64,000 bases of DNA, from NCBI GenBank assembly GCA_947038515.1, contig CAMQWJ010000001.1, forward strand, positions 1 through 64,000. The letters run 5' to 3'. The position numbers and the translations under genes are program-made. Positions within the stretch are counted from its first letter, which is position 1, and every line of letters starts with the position of its first letter. The notes beneath the pieces are model-generated. The model did not search any database and was not told the DNA's origin. It saw only the letters and a program-made list of their open reading frames with translations. The stretch comes from an uncultured Fusobacteriaceae bacterium (GTDB lineage Bacteria > Fusobacteriota > Fusobacteriia > Fusobacteriales > Fusobacteriaceae). Shown here one piece after another: positions 44,243 to 55,759 of the stretch.

Positions 44243-44274
44243 AAAAAGAGCTAAATTTAGCTCTTTTTTTTTTT
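44243..44274. terminator. Bidirectional terminator at the right end of the fibre locus
   Basis: A7-GAGCTAAATTTAGCTC-T9, the same hairpin as at 19032-19061, with similar flanking sequence on the operon side. It serves operon R and the convergent argH, whose stop codon (44273-44275) lies in the T-run. Confidence 0.9.
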
Positions 44275-45688
44275 AAAGAATATCATTTATTCTATAACTA
44301 ATCAATTCTTCCCTTGCACTTTTCAAAAATATTTCTAAAATATTTAAATGATTCTGCAAGCTTACTTTACTCGGTCCACCAAAACTATCTCTTTTTTCCA
44401 CACAATTTTTTATTGTAATTGCCTCATAGATATCTTTCTCAAACAGTTCTGAAAATTCTATATATTTCCCAAAAGGCATAGTTTCTAAATTAAAGTTATT
44501 ATCCATACAATAACTTACAATACTTCCAGTTATTTTATAGGCATCTCTAAAACTAATTCCTTTTATTGTTAAATAATCTGCCACATCTGTAGCATTTATA
44601 AATCCATCATTACATGCTAGTAATAAAATATCTTTCTTAACTTTTAATGTTCTAATCATTCCTATAAACACCTGTAAACATCCTTTTACTGTGTCGATAC
44701 AATCAAAAAATACTTCTTTATCTTCTTGCATGTCCTTATTATATGCTAAAGGGATTCCTTTCATAGTTGTTAATAGGGAGATTAAATCTCCATAAACTCT
44801 TCCAGTTTTTCCTCTTACTAATTCTGCAGCATCAGGATTCTTTTTTTGGGGCATAATACTACTCCCTGTTGAAAAAGCATCACTCAATTCAATATATCCA
44901 AAATCATTTGAACTATAGATTATGATTTCTTCTGAAAATCTTGAAAGGTGCATCATTGTAATAGAGAGAGAACTCATAATCTCAATTAAATAATCTCTAT
45001 CACTAACTGAATCTAGAGTATTTAGTGTTGCTCCTTTAAATCCTAAAATTTTAGCAGTATATTCTCTATCTATGGGATATGATGTTCCTGCTAGGGCAGC
45101 AGAACCCAGTGGAGAATAATCTGCTAGTTCAAAAGCATTTAAAAGACGAGTATAATCTCTCTTAAACATTTCTACGTATGCTAATAAATAATGTCCAAAT
45201 GATATAGGTTGGGCTTTTTGAAGATGTGTAAAACCAGGCATATATGTCTCTAAATTTTCATTTGATAATTTTATTAAAACTTCTATAAGTTCTATTAAAT
45301 ATGATTGAATTTTTTTCACTTCATCTTTACTAAAAAGTCTTATGTCTAAAGCAACTTGATCATTTCGACTTCTTCCAGTATGAAGCTTTTTTCCAATATC
45401 TCCTATTTTATCAATAAGTATTTTTTCTATATTCATATGAATATCTTCATAAGTTATAGAAAACTCTATTTTCCCCTCTTCTATTTCATTCAAAATCTCC
45501 AACAAAGTTTTTTCTATAATTTCACCCTCTTTTTCAGAGATTATTTTTTGCTTAGCTAGTCCCCTTACATGGGCGATACTCCCCATAATATCATACCTAT
45601 ATAATCTTTGATCAAACTTTATAGAAGAATGAAAATCTAATATTAAATCACTTGCTTTTTCTTTAAACCTTCCTGAAAAATATTGCAT
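44273..45688 (-). CDS. argH: Argininosuccinate lyase
   Basis: A 471-aa fumarase/aspartase-superfamily lyase that splits argininosuccinate into arginine and fumarate. The signature GSSIMPQKKNPDAAELVRGKTGR lies at about residues 270-292; LHTGRSRNDQVALD and GFTHLQKAQPISFGHY are also typical. AGGAGGAAAT precedes the ATG. It is the second gene after nhaC. No other arginine biosynthesis gene is in the window, so a catabolic or salvage role is possible. Confidence 0.95.
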   Translation of the reverse strand: MQYFSGRFKEKASDLILDFHSSIKFDQRLYRYDIMGSIAHVRGLAKQKIISEKEGEIIEKTLLEILNEIEEGKIEFSITYEDIHMNIEKILIDKIGDIGKKLHTGRSRNDQVALDIRLFSKDEVKKIQSYLIELIEVLIKLSNENLETYMPGFTHLQKAQPISFGHYLLAYVEMFKRDYTRLLNAFELADYSPLGSAALAGTSYPIDREYTAKILGFKGATLNTLDSVSDRDYLIEIMSSLSITMMHLSRFSEEIIIYSSNDFGYIELSDAFSTGSSIMPQKKNPDAAELVRGKTGRVYGDLISLLTTMKGIPLAYNKDMQEDKEVFFDCIDTVKGCLQVFIGMIRTLKVKKDILLLACNDGFINATDVADYLTIKGISFRDAYKITGSIVSYCMDNNFNLETMPFGKYIEFSELFEKDIYEAITIKNCVEKRDSFGGPSKVSLQNHLNILEIFLKSAREELISYRINDIL

Positions 45689-45698
45689 ATTTCCTCCT

Positions 45699-47177
45699 TT
45701 ACAAACTTTTTTTCATAAATAATTTTATCGAAGTTAAAATCGTTATTTGAGCTATCACTGCTGCTATTATTAAATATGGATTTTGATAGAAGCCTCCAAT
45801 TAAAAATATCACAACTGATAGTCCAGCATTGATTAGAGCATATGGTGTCTGACTCTTAACATGATTTATATGATCGCACCCTGCTCCTGCTGATGACAAT
45901 ATTGTAGTATCTGAAATTGGTGATACATGATCTCCAAATAACCCCCCAGATAAAATTGCACCTACTGTAACATAAAGTGGTGTCCCAAATGCTATAGCCA
46001 TTGGAACCACAAGAGGTATCATTATACTATATGTTCCCCATGAACTCCCTGTTGAAAATGAAATTATTGCACCCATAACAAAAGCTAATACTGGTATAAG
46101 ACCTGCATTTATATCTATACTCTTTAAGAAACTTATTAAAAATTGATCTGTTCCTAAATCTTTATTTATAACTCCTAAAGACCAAGCTAAAACTAATATT
46201 ATCACTATTTCACTCATTTTTTTCATTCCATTTAGGTAAATAGAAAATATCTCTGTAAAACTTTTACTCTTATAAAAAAGCATAAGTCCAATTAGGACAA
46301 TTGCAGCATTTAAATATCCACTTGTTAAAGCAACTCTAAAAGATGAACCTGAAATTTTTGACGTTAAAAAAGAGGTTCCAAGTATAGAAAAAAGTGTACC
46401 TAATAAAATTAAAATTGGCAACCAAACAAATGATCCTTTTGCATTTTTTACTTGATATTTAGAAACATCTTCCTCTGACTCTTCTTCATCAATAAGATTA
46501 TTTTCAAAAAATACCATTGGTCCAAAGTCTAATTTTAAAAAAGTTAAACTTGGAACTATTACTAAGGCTAAAATTGGATATATATTAAAAGGTATCGCCT
46601 TTACAAAAGTTTCATAATCAGATAGTGGTAATTTTAATAGTTCAAACTCTTTTTGTAAAAGTCCAATTATAAAAACTCCCCACCCTATAAAAGGTACTAA
46701 TACTGCCACTGGTGAAGAAGTTGTATCCAATATAAATGCTAATTTTTCTTTAGAAATTTTAAGTCTTTTAAAAAAAGGATTAAAAATTGGACCAACAATT
46801 AATGGCGTTCCTAAATCTGAAAAAAATATCATTATTCCTGTTAGGTATGCTAAAATTTGTGCCTTAACTTTTGAATTTACAAATCTTTTAAATCCTTCAG
46901 CAAAAGCATACGCTCCTCCAGAGAACATCATCAATTCTATAAAACCACCAATAAAAATCATTAAAATTATAACACCTGCATTATAACTATCTGTGATTTG
47001 ATTAACAAAATATTTTCCTATTAAAAGCTTTGTTGCTTCTAAAGGATTATACCCATTTAAAATTAAAACACCAGAAAATACACTTAAAAAAAGAGATAAT
47101 ACAACATTTTTTGTTTTAATAGACAAAAATATTGCAACCAAAATTGGAATAATTGAAAAAAAACCGTAAGATAACAT
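45699..47177 (-). CDS. NhaC-family Na+/H+ antiporter or related ion/amino-acid transporter
   Basis: A 492-aa inner-membrane protein of the NhaC type with about twelve membrane segments. The typical sequence FGDHVSPISDTTILSSAGAGCDHINHV lies at about residues 405-430, with STGSSWGTYSIMIPL before it. NhaC proteins exchange Na+ for H+, and some relatives carry amino or dicarboxylic acids. It is linked to argH (10-base gap) and both follow a structured leader RNA. The substrate could be sodium or an arginine-related compound. Confidence 0.85.
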   Translation of the reverse strand: MLSYGFFSIIPILVAIFLSIKTKNVVLSLFLSVFSGVLILNGYNPLEATKLLIGKYFVNQITDSYNAGVIILMIFIGGFIELMMFSGGAYAFAEGFKRFVNSKVKAQILAYLTGIMIFFSDLGTPLIVGPIFNPFFKRLKISKEKLAFILDTTSSPVAVLVPFIGWGVFIIGLLQKEFELLKLPLSDYETFVKAIPFNIYPILALVIVPSLTFLKLDFGPMVFFENNLIDEEESEEDVSKYQVKNAKGSFVWLPILILLGTLFSILGTSFLTSKISGSSFRVALTSGYLNAAIVLIGLMLFYKSKSFTEIFSIYLNGMKKMSEIVIILVLAWSLGVINKDLGTDQFLISFLKSIDINAGLIPVLAFVMGAIISFSTGSSWGTYSIMIPLVVPMAIAFGTPLYVTVGAILSGGLFGDHVSPISDTTILSSAGAGCDHINHVKSQTPYALINAGLSVVIFLIGGFYQNPYLIIAAVIAQITILTSIKLFMKKSL

Positions 47178-47414
47178 TTTTATATCCTCCCCCTTTATTA
47201 TAAATAATAATAAATAAAAAAGGCATACCTTAAAGGTATACCTTAGAGAACTTAATAAACTAATAAGTGTATTGTTATGGCAGCTTCACAATACTTAATT
47301 CACAGGATCATAACATCATAGCTATCGGCCTTAGGCTCCGTATATGAAAGTGAATTAAACTCTTTTCTATTCTTATTTTTAATAAGTATATCATGTAATT
47401 GTTATTTTTGTCAA
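47178..47414 (-). promoter_or_regulatory. Promoter and structured leader RNA of nhaC-argH
   Basis: On the minus strand: -35 TTGACA (47414-47409), 18-base spacer, -10 TATACT (47390-47385), start near 47377. The roughly 200-nt leader has a perfect 9-bp stem (47350-47358 with 47295-47303) enclosing a GC-richer core of about 46 nt (GGAGCC, GGCCGATAGCTATGATG), a second 7-bp stem (47288-47294 with 47269-47275), and a terminator hairpin (47216-47244) just before GGGGGAGG and the nhaC ATG. This is the architecture of a riboswitch or other attenuator. A Na+-sensing class would suit nhaC but is not shown. Confidence 0.6.
47216..47244 (-). terminator. Leader terminator of nhaC-argH
   Basis: On the minus strand AAGGTATACC, a short loop and GGTATGCCTT are followed by T6. 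It lies 39 bases before the nhaC start, the expected place for a switching terminator. Confidence 0.7.
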
Positions 47415-47432: not shown

Positions 47433-48509
47433 TTAATGAGCTCCACCATATTTAATAGGATTTTCTAAAACATAATCAACTCCTGGACTCATATGTTGAC
47501 TCATAGGTTTAACATTTATATTTGCTCTATACTCTGTTTCTGCCCATTGAATTCTCTGAGCAACTAAAGCTTCAGGATTTAATGTAACACCATCAAGTAT
47601 TAATTCTTTAAACTTTTGGAATCCTGCTCTATCTATTAAATGACCACCATGTAAATATTCTGGTCTATGGTGTAATACATTAGATGAGAATTTCTGCCAG
47701 TTTCCAATAACTCCTAGTATAACATCTTCTGTTATCCAATTTAAAAATATTTTTCCCATTCTTGGATATTGTTTTCCTGTTCTTCCACCAATTAATATTC
47801 TATATAATTTTTCTTCTGGTCTTGTCCAAGCTGATGATGGGCATGCCTCAACACATTCACCACAACCTACACAACAACAAGAATCTTTTTCGACTCTATT
47901 ATTTTCAAGTGAAAGAACTCGTGTTGCACCATGTGCACAAACTTTAACACATCTTCCACACCCTATACATCTTTCTGGATGATAAGTTGGTTTTGTTACT
48001 CCTACTATTCCAAAATCATTAAAATGACCTTTTCCACAATCATTAGGACAACCTGATAAAGCAGTTTTTATATGATAATGACTTGGAAATATTAATTTTT
48101 CTATTTTTTTAGCTAACTCATGTGTATTATAATTTCCTTTTACACAATGTGAATTTCCTATACATGCCATAATATTTCTTGCACCTATTGTTGGATAACC
48201 TGCTTTAGGAGATGCTCCTTTCATATCTACATTGCAAGCTTCTATATCTGTTTTCTTTATATAGTCTGCTATATATTCATTTACAGCTTCGATTTTTTCA
48301 AATTTTATCCCTGGTGCATTAAGAGTTTGTCTCATTCCCATATGAAATGTTCCATCTCCCCAAGTTTCTGCAATATACTGAATATCTTTAAGATATTTCG
48401 CCTCTATAAATCCTCCTGGAACACGTAACTGTAACATAAATTCTCCAGGAACTTTAGATTGTCTAAAACAATTTAGTTTTAATTTTGTTATATTAATATC
48501 GTAATTCAT
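47433..48509 (-). CDS. asrC: Anaerobic sulfite reductase subunit C
   Basis: A 358-aa siroheme sulfite reductase subunit. It has the sulfite/nitrite reductase ferredoxin-like half-domain at the start, siroheme/[4Fe-4S] ligands CIGNSHCVKG and SGCPNDCGKG (about 115-165), and two inserted ferredoxin clusters CIGCGRCVKVC and CVGCGECVEACP (about 180-225). It reduces sulfite to sulfide with AsrA and AsrB. Third gene of asrABC. Siroheme would come from the synthase encoded at 61.9 kb. Confidence 0.95.
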   Translation of the reverse strand: MNYDINITKLKLNCFRQSKVPGEFMLQLRVPGGFIEAKYLKDIQYIAETWGDGTFHMGMRQTLNAPGIKFEKIEAVNEYIADYIKKTDIEACNVDMKGASPKAGYPTIGARNIMACIGNSHCVKGNYNTHELAKKIEKLIFPSHYHIKTALSGCPNDCGKGHFNDFGIVGVTKPTYHPERCIGCGRCVKVCAHGATRVLSLENNRVEKDSCCCVGCGECVEACPSSAWTRPEEKLYRILIGGRTGKQYPRMGKIFLNWITEDVILGVIGNWQKFSSNVLHHRPEYLHGGHLIDRAGFQKFKELILDGVTLNPEALVAQRIQWAETEYRANINVKPMSQHMSPGVDYVLENPIKYGGAH

Positions 48510-48524
48510 CTTTTCACCCCTTTA

Positions 48525-49334
48525 TTAGTCAACTAAATATTTACCTTCTACATAACTGAACACAGGCCCTTCTAAACATACATATGTTTCATCTATTCTA
48601 CAGTGTCCACATTTCCCTACTGCACATGACATTTTTCTTTCAAATGATAGCCATATAGCTTTTTCTGGAACTCCTAATTTTACAAATTCAAGAGCTGTAA
48701 ATTTCATCATCATTGGTGGCCCAACTATAATTACTTCCAAATCTTCAAATTTTTCTTTTGCCATCTTAAGACCAGGAATATGCTCTGTTACTAACCCTAC
48801 ACATTCTCCATCTAATCCACACCCTTTATCTACAGTTAAAGTCATTTGAAATTTTTCTCTCCATTTTTGAACTTCATCTTTAAATAAAACTGATGTAGCA
48901 TCTTTGAATCCAAATAATAGCTCCATAGACTTTACTTCTTTTGGATTATTGTATATATGATTTATTAAAGATCTAATTGGAGCAAGGCCTGAGCCTCCTG
49001 TTGCTATCACTAATTTTTTATCTTTATACTTTTCCAAATCAAAACCTTTTCCATATGGTCCTCTCATTGGCATAATATCTCCAGCTTCAAGTTTAAATAT
49101 TTCATCAGTTACTATTCCAACTTTTCTTATTAGAAATTCTGCCCATCCTTCCTCTTTTGAAAAATCTGTTACTGATATTGGACATTCTCCTACTTTCGGA
49201 AGAGAAAGTTGCATAAATTGACCAAACTGAATATTCTTAGCTTCTGGATATTCCACTCTAAAAAGATACTCAATTTCTGTCATTTTAATAACACTTAATA
49301 CTTTATATGGTTTTGGCATAATTATATTTTGCAT
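48525..49334 (-). CDS. asrB: Anaerobic sulfite reductase subunit B
   Basis: A 269-aa FAD/NAD(P)H-binding subunit of the ferredoxin-NADP reductase type: RGPYGKGFDLEKY, IATGGSGLAPIRSLINH for the nucleotide site, and a C-terminal [2Fe-2S] knot (CAVGKCGHCRI ... CLEGPVFSY). It passes electrons to AsrA/AsrC. Its ATG overlaps the asrA stop by one base (TAATG). Confidence 0.95.
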   Translation of the reverse strand: MQNIIMPKPYKVLSVIKMTEIEYLFRVEYPEAKNIQFGQFMQLSLPKVGECPISVTDFSKEEGWAEFLIRKVGIVTDEIFKLEAGDIMPMRGPYGKGFDLEKYKDKKLVIATGGSGLAPIRSLINHIYNNPKEVKSMELLFGFKDATSVLFKDEVQKWREKFQMTLTVDKGCGLDGECVGLVTEHIPGLKMAKEKFEDLEVIIVGPPMMMKFTALEFVKLGVPEKAIWLSFERKMSCAVGKCGHCRIDETYVCLEGPVFSYVEGKYLVD

Positions 49335-50371
49335 TATTTTACACCTCCATTCATTTTATCAACCTCATCAGCTAATTTGTTTACTGTTGTTGAGAAAGAT
49401 ATAAATACTGGACATTTATCATCACATCTTCCACACCCTACACACATGTTTTCTTTTCCAAATCTCTTTTTATAGTCATGAATTTTATGCATTACTTTGA
49501 ATCTCATTCTTTCTCCACCTGTTTTTCTAAAAGAGTGATCTCCAGCCATATCTGTATATCCATTTACATGACACGAAGCATTAATTCTTCTTCTTTCTCC
49601 TGCATTAGTATCTTTTGAATAGTTTAGGTCATATGTTGTAAAACAAGTACATGTTGAACATGATACAGTACAACTTCCACACATTAGACATCTTTTATCA
49701 AATTCTTTCCACATCTCTAGACTTTTTATTGCTAACTGTGTTTCTTTATCTCTAATATCAGGAATTCTTACTACTCTATTATTTTCAGTTACTGGAGTAA
49801 CTTTAAAAGTAACTTCTTCATTTCCTGTAAAGTATTTATTAAATTCTTCATCTTTATTTTCTATTAGAACATTCTCTTCAGAAATTTTTACTCCAAAAGC
49901 ATATTCAGAAGTTTCATTTGTCCCCATTGATGTACAAAAACAAGTATCCCAACCATTTGTTGGACATTCCATTAAAATAAATTTTGTTCTTTCTCTCATT
50001 CTTTTATAATAAGAATCTTCAAATCCGCCATTTTTCAAGTATATGTCATCATATCTTTTTAAAGAATGAATATCACATGCTCTTACAAATACAAGTAATG
50101 GTCTTTCATCTACTATTCTGCTCTCTTTGTAGTCACCATCAGTAAAATATAATACTGTTTCTGTTATTGGACTCAATACTTCTTTTGCTGCATAATCAGA
50201 TTTTTCTTTATGCTCTATTTCTTGAGCAGTGTTTATTCTATCATACTTGATAATATCTGTATCTGAATATCTTCCTGCCTTCAAAAATCTTTTTGGAGCA
50301 TAAATCTTATAAGATTTACTTAATTCTTTCACTAAGAGATCAAAATTCTCCGTACTCATTTTATAGCTCAT
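49334..50371 (-). CDS. asrA: Anaerobic sulfite reductase subunit A
   Basis: A 345-aa iron-sulfur subunit with two [4Fe-4S] motifs near the C-terminus (CLMCGSCTVSCSTCTC at about 230, CVGCGRCDDKCP at about 315) and DTCFCTSMG in the middle. First gene of asrABC with GGGAGG upstream. The promoter lies in the AT-rich 124-bp spacer after yeiH but is not clear-cut. Confidence 0.93.
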   Translation of the reverse strand: MSYKMSTENFDLLVKELSKSYKIYAPKRFLKAGRYSDTDIIKYDRINTAQEIEHKEKSDYAAKEVLSPITETVLYFTDGDYKESRIVDERPLLVFVRACDIHSLKRYDDIYLKNGGFEDSYYKRMRERTKFILMECPTNGWDTCFCTSMGTNETSEYAFGVKISEENVLIENKDEEFNKYFTGNEEVTFKVTPVTENNRVVRIPDIRDKETQLAIKSLEMWKEFDKRCLMCGSCTVSCSTCTCFTTYDLNYSKDTNAGERRRINASCHVNGYTDMAGDHSFRKTGGERMRFKVMHKIHDYKKRFGKENMCVGCGRCDDKCPVFISFSTTVNKLADEVDKMNGGVK

Positions 50372-50495
50372 TATTTTCCTCCCTATTTTTTAAATCACTT
50401 TTTTTATATCAAATTCTCTTTTTATTAGATAAATTGATAAAAAAATGAAATTTTTCTTATTTAAATTCTATATTTAAAATTAAAAAAATAATTTT

Positions 50496-51488
50496 TTAAA
50501 TATAGAATAGTAAGTAACTTCCAACAAAACCTAACACTTGGATAATTATAGCTCCTAAAAGTCCTACAACAAAAGGCTTGATTCCTGCCTTGATCATATC
50601 TTTTATATTTGTTTTTAGTCCTAAAGAAGCCATAGCAACTGTTAATATTAAATTTCCAAAATCTTTAACTCGGACTAAAACATCTTTTGGCAACAAATCA
50701 AATGAATTAAAAATAACTACTCCTACAAATGCAATTACATACCAAGGAATTTCTACTTTACTCTCTTTTTTTTCAGAATTCCATAGAGTAAACCCAATAC
50801 TTACCGGAACCAAAAATAACACTCTTGTCAATTTCGTAAGAATAGCCATTGATTCTGCAACAGTTGAGCCTACAGCTCCACCTGCTGCTACAACTTCTGC
50901 TACTTCTGGGAGACTCGATCCCACCCAAGCACCATAAAAATTTGCATTAGCATCTAATCCAAAAGCTCTAAATATAGCTGGAAATGCAAACATTGCAATT
51001 GTTCCAAAAAATGTAATTGCACCTATTCCAAAAGCAACATCCTTTTCATCAGCATCAACTATTGGACCAACTGCTGCAATTGCAGAAGCTCCACATATTG
51101 AAGTTCCTGCTGCTAAACAAATACTCATACCACGACTCAATCCAATTTTTTTCCCAAACCACAATGTAACAAACAAAGTTATAGGAACCAATATTGCTAT
51201 AAAAATTATACCTTTATACCCTAATTTAGATAATTCTGTTAAAGTAAGTTTAAATCCTATTAAAATAATACCCAATCTTAGAATTTTTTTACTTGAAAAT
51301 TTTATTCCTGCTTGAACATCATCACGTTGAGCAATTTTTGTGAAATTTGCAACCAACATTCCAATGAGAATTGCAAAAAGCAATGAACTAATGTGTAATT
51401 TTGAGTTCAATTCTGTTTTGTATAAATATAAAGAAACTATAGCTATAACAAAATTTAAAGCAACACCTTTTAATATTTTTGAATTCAT
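50496..51488 (-). CDS. YeiH/UPF0324 family putative sulfate/sulfite exporter
   Basis: A 330-aa protein with about ten membrane segments. The motif LAAGTSICGASAIAAVGPIVDADEKDVAFGIGAITFFGT at about 125-165 is the family hallmark. The family is annotated as putative sulfate exporter. Its place directly upstream of asrABC, on the same strand, suggests handling of sulfite, sulfide or a sulfonate breakdown product. An AT-rich inverted repeat (50465-50508) overlaps its stop codon. Confidence 0.85.
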   Translation of the reverse strand: MNSKILKGVALNFVIAIVSLYLYKTELNSKLHISSLLFAILIGMLVANFTKIAQRDDVQAGIKFSSKKILRLGIILIGFKLTLTELSKLGYKGIIFIAILVPITLFVTLWFGKKIGLSRGMSICLAAGTSICGASAIAAVGPIVDADEKDVAFGIGAITFFGTIAMFAFPAIFRAFGLDANANFYGAWVGSSLPEVAEVVAAGGAVGSTVAESMAILTKLTRVLFLVPVSIGFTLWNSEKKESKVEIPWYVIAFVGVVIFNSFDLLPKDVLVRVKDFGNLILTVAMASLGLKTNIKDMIKAGIKPFVVGLLGAIIIQVLGFVGSYLLFYI

Positions 51489-51949: not shown

Positions 51950-53410
51950 ATGGAAAACAATAGTAAAAAAATGGGAATCGTTGCACTTTCTGGACTAGTA
52001 ATAAGTGCTATGATTGGTGGTGGAGTCTTTAATCTACCTCAAAGTATGGCAGCCAATGCTTCTGCTGGAGCAATCCTTATTGCTTGGGTCATAACAGGAG
52101 TTGGAATGTGGTTTGTTGCTAATACTTTTAGAATTTTATCTTTAGCTAGACCAGATGCAAAAGCAGGTATTTATAGTTATGGAGAACTTGGTTTTGGTAA
52201 ATTTACAGGCTTTTTAATGGCTTGGGGATATTGGATTTGTAATTGCTTTGCTAATATTGGGTATGCAATTTTATTAATGGATTCATTAAATTATTTTTTT
52301 CCAGGTTATTTTACTGGTGGAAATAATTTCTATTCTATAATAGGTGGTTCTATTATAATTTGGGTTATGTATTTTTTAGTTATGGCTGGTGTGAAAAATG
52401 CAGCTTCTCTTAATGTAATAAGTACTATTGGAAAACTTGTTCCTCTAATTTTATTTCTATTCATTGTAATTTTTTCTATAAAACTTTCAATGTTATTTAC
52501 TAATTTTTGGGGAACGGAAACTTTAATTTCACTTCAAGACAAGCCTTTAGGTTCACTTTTAAATCAAGTTAAAGGTACCATGCTTGTAACTTTATGGGTA
52601 TTTATTGGAATTGAAGGTGCTGTTGTTATTTCAGACAGGGCTAAAGATCAGGCAACAGTTGGAAAAGCTACACTTTTAGGATTTCTTACTTGTCTAATCA
52701 TGTATATTCTTTTATCATTAGCACCTTTTGGTTCATATTCTCAAGGTCAATTAGCAGCTATGGCTCTACCTAGTACTGCTACTGCTCTGGCTGGAATTGT
52801 TGGAAAATGGGGCGATTGGATTATGAACGCTGGAGTAATTGTAGCTATTTTAGGATCATGGCTTGTTTGGACAATTATGTTAGCTGAAATGCCTTTAGCT
52901 GCAGCAAAATCTGGAAGTTTTCCTAAAATTTTTGCTAAAGAAAATAAAAATGGATCTGCTTCTTTTTCACTAATAGTTTCTACAATTATCATGCAAATTA
53001 TTATGATTTTAGTCTATTTTTCTCATAATGCTTGGAGTTTAATGCTTAATATTACTGGTGTTATGATTCTTCCTTGCTATATCATCTGCACTATCTATCT
53101 TTTTAAAATTACAACAAAAAATGAAGAGTATCCAGAAGATATTTTTTCAAGTAGAAAAAATTCAGCAATTACTGGAATTTTAGGATCAGCATATGGTTTT
53201 TGGCTTATATATGCAGCTGGTTTAAATTTTATGCTTGTTGCAAGTATCGTTTATGCAATTGGAATTCCACTATTTATAAAAGCTCGAAAAGAATCAGATC
53301 TTTCTAAACCTGTTTTTACACCTTATGAAAGACATTTTTCTGTAATATTAGTTATTTTAGGAGTAATTGGATTTATTTATCTTATCATGAACTATAAGAC
53401 ATTAATGTAG
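51950..53410 (+). CDS. APC-family basic amino-acid antiporter
   Basis: A 486-aa inner-membrane transporter with about twelve to thirteen segments. The first segment contains SAMIGGGVFNLPQSMAANAS, the glycine-rich substrate loop of the amino acid-polyamine-organocation family, and the length resembles ArcD-type arginine:ornithine antiporters. It is followed 36 bases later by an Orn/Lys/Arg decarboxylase, so it probably exchanges the substrate amino acid for the amine product, consuming cytoplasmic protons. GGAGGG precedes the ATG. Confidence 0.88.
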   Translation: MENNSKKMGIVALSGLVISAMIGGGVFNLPQSMAANASAGAILIAWVITGVGMWFVANTFRILSLARPDAKAGIYSYGELGFGKFTGFLMAWGYWICNCFANIGYAILLMDSLNYFFPGYFTGGNNFYSIIGGSIIIWVMYFLVMAGVKNAASLNVISTIGKLVPLILFLFIVIFSIKLSMLFTNFWGTETLISLQDKPLGSLLNQVKGTMLVTLWVFIGIEGAVVISDRAKDQATVGKATLLGFLTCLIMYILLSLAPFGSYSQGQLAAMALPSTATALAGIVGKWGDWIMNAGVIVAILGSWLVWTIMLAEMPLAAAKSGSFPKIFAKENKNGSASFSLIVSTIIMQIIMILVYFSHNAWSLMLNITGVMILPCYIICTIYLFKITTKNEEYPEDIFSSRKNSAITGILGSAYGFWLIYAAGLNFMLVASIVYAIGIPLFIKARKESDLSKPVFTPYERHFSVILVILGVIGFIYLIMNYKTLM

Positions 53411-53446
53411 TAATTCTTATCACTTTATATAATTCAAGGAGGAAGT

Positions 53447-55759
53447 ATGAAAAAAAGTATTGAAAATCAAAGTTATAAATTTCTTCTTTTACGAGAAGAG
53501 GCTCTAACCACTCAAACTGAAATTGGAAAAAGATTTCTTGAACTAACAACTGAATTGCAAAATAGAGGTTTTAATTTTATATTATCTACTTCTTATTATG
53601 ATTCTGAAAATGTTGTAACAGTAGAAAAAGATATCGATGTTTTATTAATAGATTGGTCTCCTAGTTCAAATGAAGAGACTGAAAAAAATTTAATTTCTCT
53701 TATAAAAAAACTTCATAAAACTCAAAAAAATGTCCCTGTATTCCTATTCAGTGAAAAACTAGGTATTGATTCTATCTTAAGTGGTGAAACTCTTGAAAAT
53801 ATTGATGAAAATGTTTTAATTCTTCAAGAAGAGATTGCATTTATTTCTGAAAGAATATCAAGAGCAGTTATTAAATACAGAGATAATTTACTACCACCTT
53901 TGGCAAAAGCTATCTTCAATTATAATAAAGTTGCTGAATATTCTTGGGCTGCTCCTGGTCATCAAAGTGGTGTAGGTTTCTCTAAAAATGCTATTGGAAG
54001 AAAATTTTTCGATTTTTATGGTGAAAATCTTTTTAGAACAGACACTGGAATTGAAAGAACTAGTTTGGGCTCACTTTTGGACCATACAGGTGCATTTTTA
54101 GAAAGTGAAAAAAATATAGCTAGAATATTTGGAGCAGACCGTTCTTATAATGTCTTAGTTGGAACCTCTGCTTCTAATAGAACTATTATGCAGGCTTGTC
54201 TCACTGATGTTGATATAGCTCTTACTGATAGAAATTGTCACAAATCTATTGAACAAGGTCTTATCCTCACAGGGGCTAAACCAGTATATATGATTCCTAC
54301 TAGAAATAGATACGGGATTATTGGACCAATCTTACCTAAAGAAATGACACAAGAAGCTGTTCTACAAAAAATACTTGTGAGTCCTTTAATTGAAGAACAA
54401 TTTAAAAAGAATAACCCTGAATACACAGTAGTAACTAACTGTACTTATGATGGTATTGTATATAATGCAGCAAAGGTTGAAGAAAATTTTGAACCTTTTA
54501 TTAACAGAATACACTTTGATGAAGCTTGGTATGGATATGCAAGATTTTCTCCACTATATGAAAATCATTTTGCAATGAGAGGAAATCCTAGTGATTATAA
54601 AGGTAGTACAGTTTTTGCTACTCATTCCACTCATAAACTCTTAAATGCACTTTCTCAAGCTTCATTTATTCATATGAGATATGGAAAAAAACCTATTAGC
54701 GAAGAGCGATTTAATCAATCATATATGATTCAAGCTACTACTTCTCCACTCTATGCAATTGCTGTTTCTAATGATATAGGGGCTGCTATGATGGATGGAG
54801 AAAGTGGACCTTTATTAATGGAAGAAGTTATACATGAATCTATTGCTTTCCGTAAAAAAATAGCACAATTACATAGAGAATTCAAAGAGAAAGGTGAATG
54901 GTTCTTTAAACCATGGAATCCTGAAACTGTTATAGATCCAGTTACAAAAAAAGAATATTCTTTTGAAGAAGCCCCAATGGAACTTCTTATGAAAGAGCAA
55001 TCTTGCTGGAAATTAAATCCTGGTGATATTTGGCATGGATTTGAAAACATTCCAGAAAATTGGGCAATGCTTGATCCCATAAAAGTAAGTATTTTAGCTC
55101 CTGGAATGGGTGATGATGGTAAAATGATTGAAAAGGGAGTTCCTGCTGACTTAATTTCATATTATTTCTCTAAATATGGAATTGTTCCTACACGAACTAC
55201 AGATTTTCAAGTTATGTTCCTATTCTCAATGGGGATTAATGAAGGGAAATGGGCAACTTTAGTAGATATGCTCTTATCCTTTAAAAAACATTATGATAAT
55301 AATGTACTTTTAAAAACTGTACTTCCTGACCTTGTTGCAGGAAGAGAAGAAACTTATGATGGAAAAGGATTAAAAGATTTAGGGGAAGAAATGTTTGAAT
55401 ATTTAAAAGAAAACAACCCTTCTGAATCTCTTAATTTAGCATATTCAACACTACCTACTCCAGTTTTAACTCCTAGAGAGGCATTTAATAAAATTGTAAA
55501 AAATGAAGTTGAATTAATACCAGCGGATAAATTAATTAATAGAATAACTGCTAATTCTGTTATTCCTTATCCACCTGGAATTCCTATGTTAATGTCTGGA
55601 GAAAATTTTGGTGACATTAATAGTCCACAAATAAATTATTTAAAATCTTTATCTACTTGGGATAAAAATTTCCCAGGTTTTGAACATGAAACAGAGGGAA
55701 CTGTTGTAAAAGATGGAATTTATCATGTTTTATGTGTTAAAGACAATATCGACAACTAA
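53447..55759 (+). CDS. Inducible-type Orn/Lys/Arg decarboxylase
   Basis: A 770-aa PLP enzyme. The N-terminal flavodoxin-like wing domain (about 1-130) is followed by the fold-type I core. HFDEAWYGYARFSPLY carries the Asp that binds PLP, and FATHSTHKLLNALSQ carries the Schiff-base Lys. The C-terminal domain contains PYPPGIPMLMSGE. Length is in the AdiA/CadA/SpeF range; the exact amino acid cannot be settled. With the preceding antiporter it forms an acid-resistance or amine-producing module. Confidence 0.92.
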   Translation: MKKSIENQSYKFLLLREEALTTQTEIGKRFLELTTELQNRGFNFILSTSYYDSENVVTVEKDIDVLLIDWSPSSNEETEKNLISLIKKLHKTQKNVPVFLFSEKLGIDSILSGETLENIDENVLILQEEIAFISERISRAVIKYRDNLLPPLAKAIFNYNKVAEYSWAAPGHQSGVGFSKNAIGRKFFDFYGENLFRTDTGIERTSLGSLLDHTGAFLESEKNIARIFGADRSYNVLVGTSASNRTIMQACLTDVDIALTDRNCHKSIEQGLILTGAKPVYMIPTRNRYGIIGPILPKEMTQEAVLQKILVSPLIEEQFKKNNPEYTVVTNCTYDGIVYNAAKVEENFEPFINRIHFDEAWYGYARFSPLYENHFAMRGNPSDYKGSTVFATHSTHKLLNALSQASFIHMRYGKKPISEERFNQSYMIQATTSPLYAIAVSNDIGAAMMDGESGPLLMEEVIHESIAFRKKIAQLHREFKEKGEWFFKPWNPETVIDPVTKKEYSFEEAPMELLMKEQSCWKLNPGDIWHGFENIPENWAMLDPIKVSILAPGMGDDGKMIEKGVPADLISYYFSKYGIVPTRTTDFQVMFLFSMGINEGKWATLVDMLLSFKKHYDNNVLLKTVLPDLVAGREETYDGKGLKDLGEEMFEYLKENNPSESLNLAYSTLPTPVLTPREAFNKIVKNEVELIPADKLINRITANSVIPYPPGIPMLMSGENFGDINSPQINYLKSLSTWDKNFPGFEHETEGTVVKDGIYHVLCVKDNIDN

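Follow-up and report, generated by a model that had tools for sequence, protein, structure and literature searches.

The nhaC-argH operon of an uncultured Fusobacteriaceae bacterium raises a double question: what kind of RNA leads into these genes, and what might it sense? In the window, that is, the whole stretch of 64 000 nt that was analysed, a structured RNA of approximately 100 nt lies between a promoter and a terminator (region 47414-47178, minus strand), ahead of the nhaC start codon (ATG at 47177, minus strand). The first-pass annotation had described here a promoter, a perfect 9-bp closing stem, a GC-richer core, a second stem and a terminator hairpin just before the nhaC ribosome site, and all five are indeed present (table 1), terminator-like sites being expected by chance 0.1 times in the whole stretch.

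Table 1. Elements of the window leader and of the operon behind it.
Feature	Position	Strand	Remarks
Sigma-70-type promoter TTGACA-18-TATACT	47385..47414	-	11/12 consensus; TTGACA 47414-47409, spacer 18 nt, TATACT 47390-47385
P0, 5' strand GAG	47360..47362	-	partner CTC 47248-47246; weak in window copy
P1, 5' strand TTAATTCAC	47350..47358	-	half of perfect 9-bp stem
P2, 5' strand CATATAC	47340..47346	-	one bulged base
Conserved core GGAGCCTAAGGCCGATAGC	47321..47339	-	includes P3
P3, GCC with AGC	47336-47334 with 47323-47321	-	10-nt loop TAAGGCCGAT
P2, 3' strand GTTATG	47309..47314	-	
P1, 3' strand GTGAATTAA	47295..47303	-	other half of 9-bp stem
P4 hairpin GTATTGT-GAAGCTGCCATA-ACAATAC	47269..47294	-	arms 47294-47288 and 47275-47269
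P4-loop GCC	47281-47279	-	possible partner: P3-loop GGC 47330-47328
P5 hairpin CTTA...TAAG	47251..47267	-	joins P4 to P0; short, weak stem
Intrinsic terminator hairpin	47220..47244	-	11 bp, then T run
nhaC ribosome-binding site GGGGGAGG	47186..47193	-	sequence
nhaC-family transporter gene	45699..47177	-	first controlled gene; PF03553, 184 bits
argH, argininosuccinate lyase	44273..45688	-	second operon gene; TIGR00838, 603.6 bits versus cut-off 279.5

Folded as a single sequence, the window leader is unremarkable (z = -1.67), so that the case for the RNA rests on comparison. BLASTN against 61 genomes yielded 20 genuine homologues, 17 of which were used to build a covariance model; scanned across 98 Fusobacteriota genomes with a match threshold of E<=0.001, this model retrieved 46 matches in 18 genomes. 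One of these (L039, in G054) was regarded as a chance match despite its 33.8 bits, the core being missing. Its removal leaves 45 copies in 17 genomes and four genera, all Fusobacteriaceae: Cetobacterium, the genus of the window and two others. The window genome holds a single copy according to the same scan, the RNA is absent from the other examined species of that genus, and in C. somerae it is located on the 705-kb plasmid. When a collection of genome contigs was searched with a core motif pattern, the named records were all Cetobacterium; pattern matches outside Fusobacteriaceae (L070-L072, L079, L080, L083, L086, L088, L218) had no model match or no core and were attributed to chance, as were the remaining ones among genome and viral contigs. 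The RNA is narrow in range, and this one motif pattern, applied across genome contigs, did not find it outside Fusobacteriota.

The alignment of all copies comprises 32 rows and 31 distinct sequences. Over the latter, 97.2% of the cells in the 28 scored pairs (P1, P2, P3, P4 and a proposed loop-loop contact) are paired, and 16 of these pairs display two-sided changes. The covariation score reaches 0.334 versus 0.144 after shuffling, none of 500 shuffles attaining 0.334, and does not exceed 0.086 for slid partners. Two-sided changes affect five of the nine pairs of P1 and all six of P2 (31 sequences), as well as four of the seven pairs of P4, in which GU/AC is exchanged for AC/GU. Comparison of the copies thus shows support for P1, P2, P4, the conserved core and the P4 loop; P3 is weakly supported, its pair 27-42 being GC, with AU in one sequence and GU in one. 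The core, GAGCCUAAGGC(C/U)GA, is near-invariant: its conservation in related genomes was one of the tests on which the first-pass annotation had staked its reading, and it was found conserved. The pair formed by the P3-loop GGC and the P4-loop GCC is invariant across the alignment, which gives covariation nothing to judge, and the loop-loop contact is therefore a proposal only. On these comparative grounds, conservation and covariation are decisive for the reality of the structured leader, which is a real conserved RNA family.

Several features outside the scored stems recur as well. Most homologous leaders have a TATACT-like -10 box at the equivalent place, and P5 is seen again in the predicted folds of most homologues. 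P0, which has 4-8 bp in GAG-type homologues, closes the element beside the terminator in most copies, with a pairing of its own at -2.55 kcal/mol versus -1.48 for shuffled 3' segments (0/200); YjiH2-type leaders have neither of its strands. When transcripts are cut just before the 3' arm of the terminator, the predicted fold of most of them gives the family architecture, L003, L004, L006 and L020 being among those that differ. In the YfcC copies (L020, L021, L053), which start within the promoter, the usual P1 is missing because the -10 box overlaps its place, and the aptamer seems to begin near P2. Two other pairings were rejected: the pseudoknot AUGGC:GCCAU loses its middle pair in 13 of the 32 rows, and a P3 hairpin GCC-UAA-GGC is contradicted by L006, in which the GC pair formed with the other partner is replaced by AU.

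The window copy keeps the core, P1, P2, P4 and the terminator, whereas its P0 is weak and its P3 is mismatched (the third pair is C.A in this copy only); its function may be looser than that of the Cetobacterium copies. A second AT-rich hairpin lies between the terminator and the ribosome-binding site (47213-47195 in the window, and likewise in L002-L016); its base is often GGCAG or GGGUAG, the complement of P4-loop CUGCC.

Is this family already known? Rfam 15 gave no match in the window for this leader at gathering thresholds, weak chance matches only at E<=10, and no match for eight homologous loci at E<=0.5. In our literature search, which covered the main texts of mostly open-access papers, so that an earlier description is possible, no arginine riboswitch surfaced beyond one passing mention, Cetobacterium yielded no riboswitch paper, and the core sequence appeared in none. 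The RNA is real and new to the catalogues searched, and strong covariation outside any Rfam 15 family bears out the initial suggestion that the leader is structured and might be a riboswitch not yet described. A riboswitch is recognized by a covariation-supported, aptamer-like structure conserved in 5' UTRs, and such a structure was found here; the RNA is probably a riboswitch and constitutes a candidate for a new class.

The nhaC-family product scores under the NCBIfam cut-offs for both NhaC and ArcD. The argH gene is the sole TIGR00838 match above cut-off in the window genome and, judged by this profile, codes for a genuine argininosuccinate lyase; argG is present in the same five of eight tested genomes as argH. 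Among 42 distinct RNA-plus-downstream sequences, one ends before its gene; in the other 41, the gene is on the RNA's own strand and belongs to YjiH1 (14), YjiH2 (8), an AstE-like hydrolase (8), nhaC (7), YfcC (3) or argH alone (1, L005). YfcC is a basic-amino-acid antiporter family (NF008611), and C. somerae (G066) displays the order RNA-yfcC-RNA-nhaC-argH. YjiH-like permeases form the largest group, 22/42, and are the part of the context that an arginine reading leaves unexplained: one YjiH group adjoins, by eye, genes for ketoacid:ferredoxin oxidoreductase and a methionine gamma-lyase-like gene rather than arginine genes. Association with the RNA gives function leads for these permeases. Other YjiH-like genes (L173-L177, L179-L181) have neither the RNA nor a clear leader. 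Just upstream of those in L179-L181 lies a gene that resembles the ATPase of an amino-acid ABC transporter, a hint that amino acids are what such YjiH-like proteins handle.

A further indication of the ligand comes from the sister genera, where seven nhaC orthologues (64-68% identity) stand without the RNA. Six of them follow a short leader ORF that has its own ribosome-binding site and is rich in Arg codons (MLLRRES..., MKLRQRH..., MLNIRTRR...), the seventh (L141) having only 163 nt upstream before the contig end, and similar Arg-codon ORFs precede SBP-argG in Fusobacteriaceae. Arg accounts for 28 of 157 codons (18%; codons 2-15) in 12 leaders, themselves related to each other, versus a background of 2.9%. 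The nhaC operon is thus probably arginine-regulated in the sister genera, and the RNA occupies the place that the Arg-codon leader holds there. As controlled argH, this exchange of leaders and the YfcC context all favour arginine, it is our best guess for the ligand, a guess about as apt to be right as wrong; it is also the better of the two ligands initially put forward, the other being Na+. That the RNA is a natural arginine riboswitch with a new aptamer fold, holding the place of the Arg-codon leader peptide found ahead of the orthologous operon in sister genera, is a reading to which we give slightly less than an even chance.

The Arg-codon leader-peptide attenuators were observed before SBP-argG (L102, L103, L104, L105, L106), nhaC (L136-L140, L107/L142) and argH (L104, minus strand); they use AGG/AGA codons, the SBP gene encodes a lysine/arginine/ornithine-type binding protein, and the hosts lack ArgR. 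This regulator is absent from all RNA-bearing genomes, and its absence is not specific to them since nearly the whole phylum is without it. We found no paper combining arginine, riboswitch, Fusobacterium and leader peptide.

How could such an RNA act on the genes behind it? Each of the 31 distinct copies runs into a terminator whose 5' arm is complementary to its P4 loop, with a mean of -6.8 versus -3.6 kcal/mol for shuffled arms (0/200), the arms being of few related types and not independent. The complementarity persists in leaders whose arm became AGCGU, whereas an antiterminator formed by the core and the terminator arm, also considered, fails in YjiH2-type leaders. The alternative pairing of the P4 loop is suggestive of an OFF switch. 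In such a model, an aptamer of approximately 100 nt would consist of P1-P2-P3 and the P4 hairpin, closed by P0 in most copies. Ligand binding would lock the P3-loop GGC to the P4-loop GCC and leave the terminator free to form, switching the genes off. Without ligand, the P4 loop would instead pair with the terminator 5' arm (UGCC with GGCA, or ACGCU with AGCGU where the arm differs), allowing read-through and leaving the genes on. That the leader is a cis-acting transcription-attenuation RNA and a new candidate riboswitch class, through which an ample supply of the ligand (most likely L-arginine) lowers the expression of nhaC-argH, appears to us evenly poised between true and false.

Among the competing explanations, the one that survives best, unlikely as we hold it to be, is a riboswitch for lysine, ornithine, citrulline or the cargo of the YjiH-like permeases. 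It is favoured by the predominance of these permeases behind the RNA and by two facts about lysine: in G073 and G078 a YfcC orthologue of about 75% identity has a lysine riboswitch approximately 190 nt upstream, and NhaC-like and YfcC genes of C. difficile are listed under lysine riboswitches (PMC11477304). However, ordinary lysine riboswitches are already carried by all RNA-bearing genomes but that of the window (17 of the 18 matched genomes, G054 counted), and argH and the swap with the Arg leader point to arginine. It is rather improbable that the structured leader is bound by a protein or a tRNA, for instance as a minimal tRNA-Arg sensor, instead of a small metabolite. In its favour, the leader peptides of the sister genera suggest that Arg is sensed there at the tRNA level for the orthologous operon. 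Against it, the invariant, pocket-like core and loop resemble those of a riboswitch, the window leader fails to match the Rfam T-box model at a threshold as loose as E<=10, the conserved T-box sequence is absent, and the UGGN-like stretch of P3 varies (U to C, G).

The first gene in the window being nhaC, the first-pass annotation had proposed a Na+ sensor (DUF1646), and a Na+ or Li+ riboswitch controlling Na+/H+ antiport now appears very improbable: no Rfam Na+/Li+ class matches the window leader at E<=10 or the eight homologues at E<=0.5, the RNA also precedes argH alone, the AstE-like hydrolase and the basic-amino-acid antiporter YfcC, and the NhaC family includes amino-acid carriers, as members sit under Tyr T-boxes and lysine riboswitches. 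Lastly, an Arg-codon leader peptide as in the sister genera, with the structure incidental, is next to impossible and refuted by the sequence, for even though several copies carry the core frame CGG AGC CTA AGG (Arg-Ser-Leu-Arg), the window leader lacks any ORF equipped with a ribosome-binding site, the RNA itself offers neither a start nor such a site, the core frame is thrown out of register by indels in P2, and the stems undergo compensatory changes.

Arginine has a strong record in artificial aptamers. An arginine-binding class, if true, would add to the few natural riboswitches for proteinogenic amino acids, of which glycine, lysine and glutamine are named (PMC5584792), and the gene pair, attenuated by a leader peptide in sister genera, would allow the replacement of one sensing mechanism by another to be studied. 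In this lineage, the lysine riboswitch (RF00168) has similar targets, NhaC-type and YfcC transporters and basic-amino-acid genes, and regulates them with the help of a transcription terminator; unlike the RNA described here, it has about 175-180 nt and another sequence and structure. There is no cross-match, the RF00168 model matching neither the window leader (E<=10) nor the eight homologues (E<=0.5) and giving clear matches elsewhere in those genomes. The Arg-codon attenuators of Fusobacteriaceae also precede nhaC and end in an intrinsic terminator, and are found before SBP-argG as well, but they would sense the translation of Arg codons and the model picked up no conserved RNA structure in them, whereas the RNA family has no leader ORF. 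Na+-I (DUF1646) and Li+ (nhaA-I, nhaA-II) riboswitches are likewise leader RNAs before cation-transporter genes (PMC9337991, PMC9646797); they differ in giving no covariance-model match, and the genes of the present family concern amino acids. Finally, the manA-II and fhsA motifs of Leptotrichia are narrow-range riboswitch candidates with terminators in Fusobacteriota; as described in the main text of that report, which is without nhaC, argH or arginine, they are set apart by their genes, manA/pflA and fhs (PMC11109978).

Two neighbouring regions of the window were also noted. Directly upstream of the promoter, 47433-51488 (minus strand) holds matches to the sulfite reductase components AsrA and AsrC. 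Between these lies a gene judged asrB-like from its position, and next comes a YeiH-family gene just under cut-off. Some 4.5 kb from the RNA, 51950-55759 (plus strand) is by its predicted products an arginine neighbourhood, with a basic amino acid/polyamine antiporter above the TIGR00905 cut-off and an arginine-decarboxylase-like gene (NF011603, 1166.7 bits versus a cut-off of 1167).
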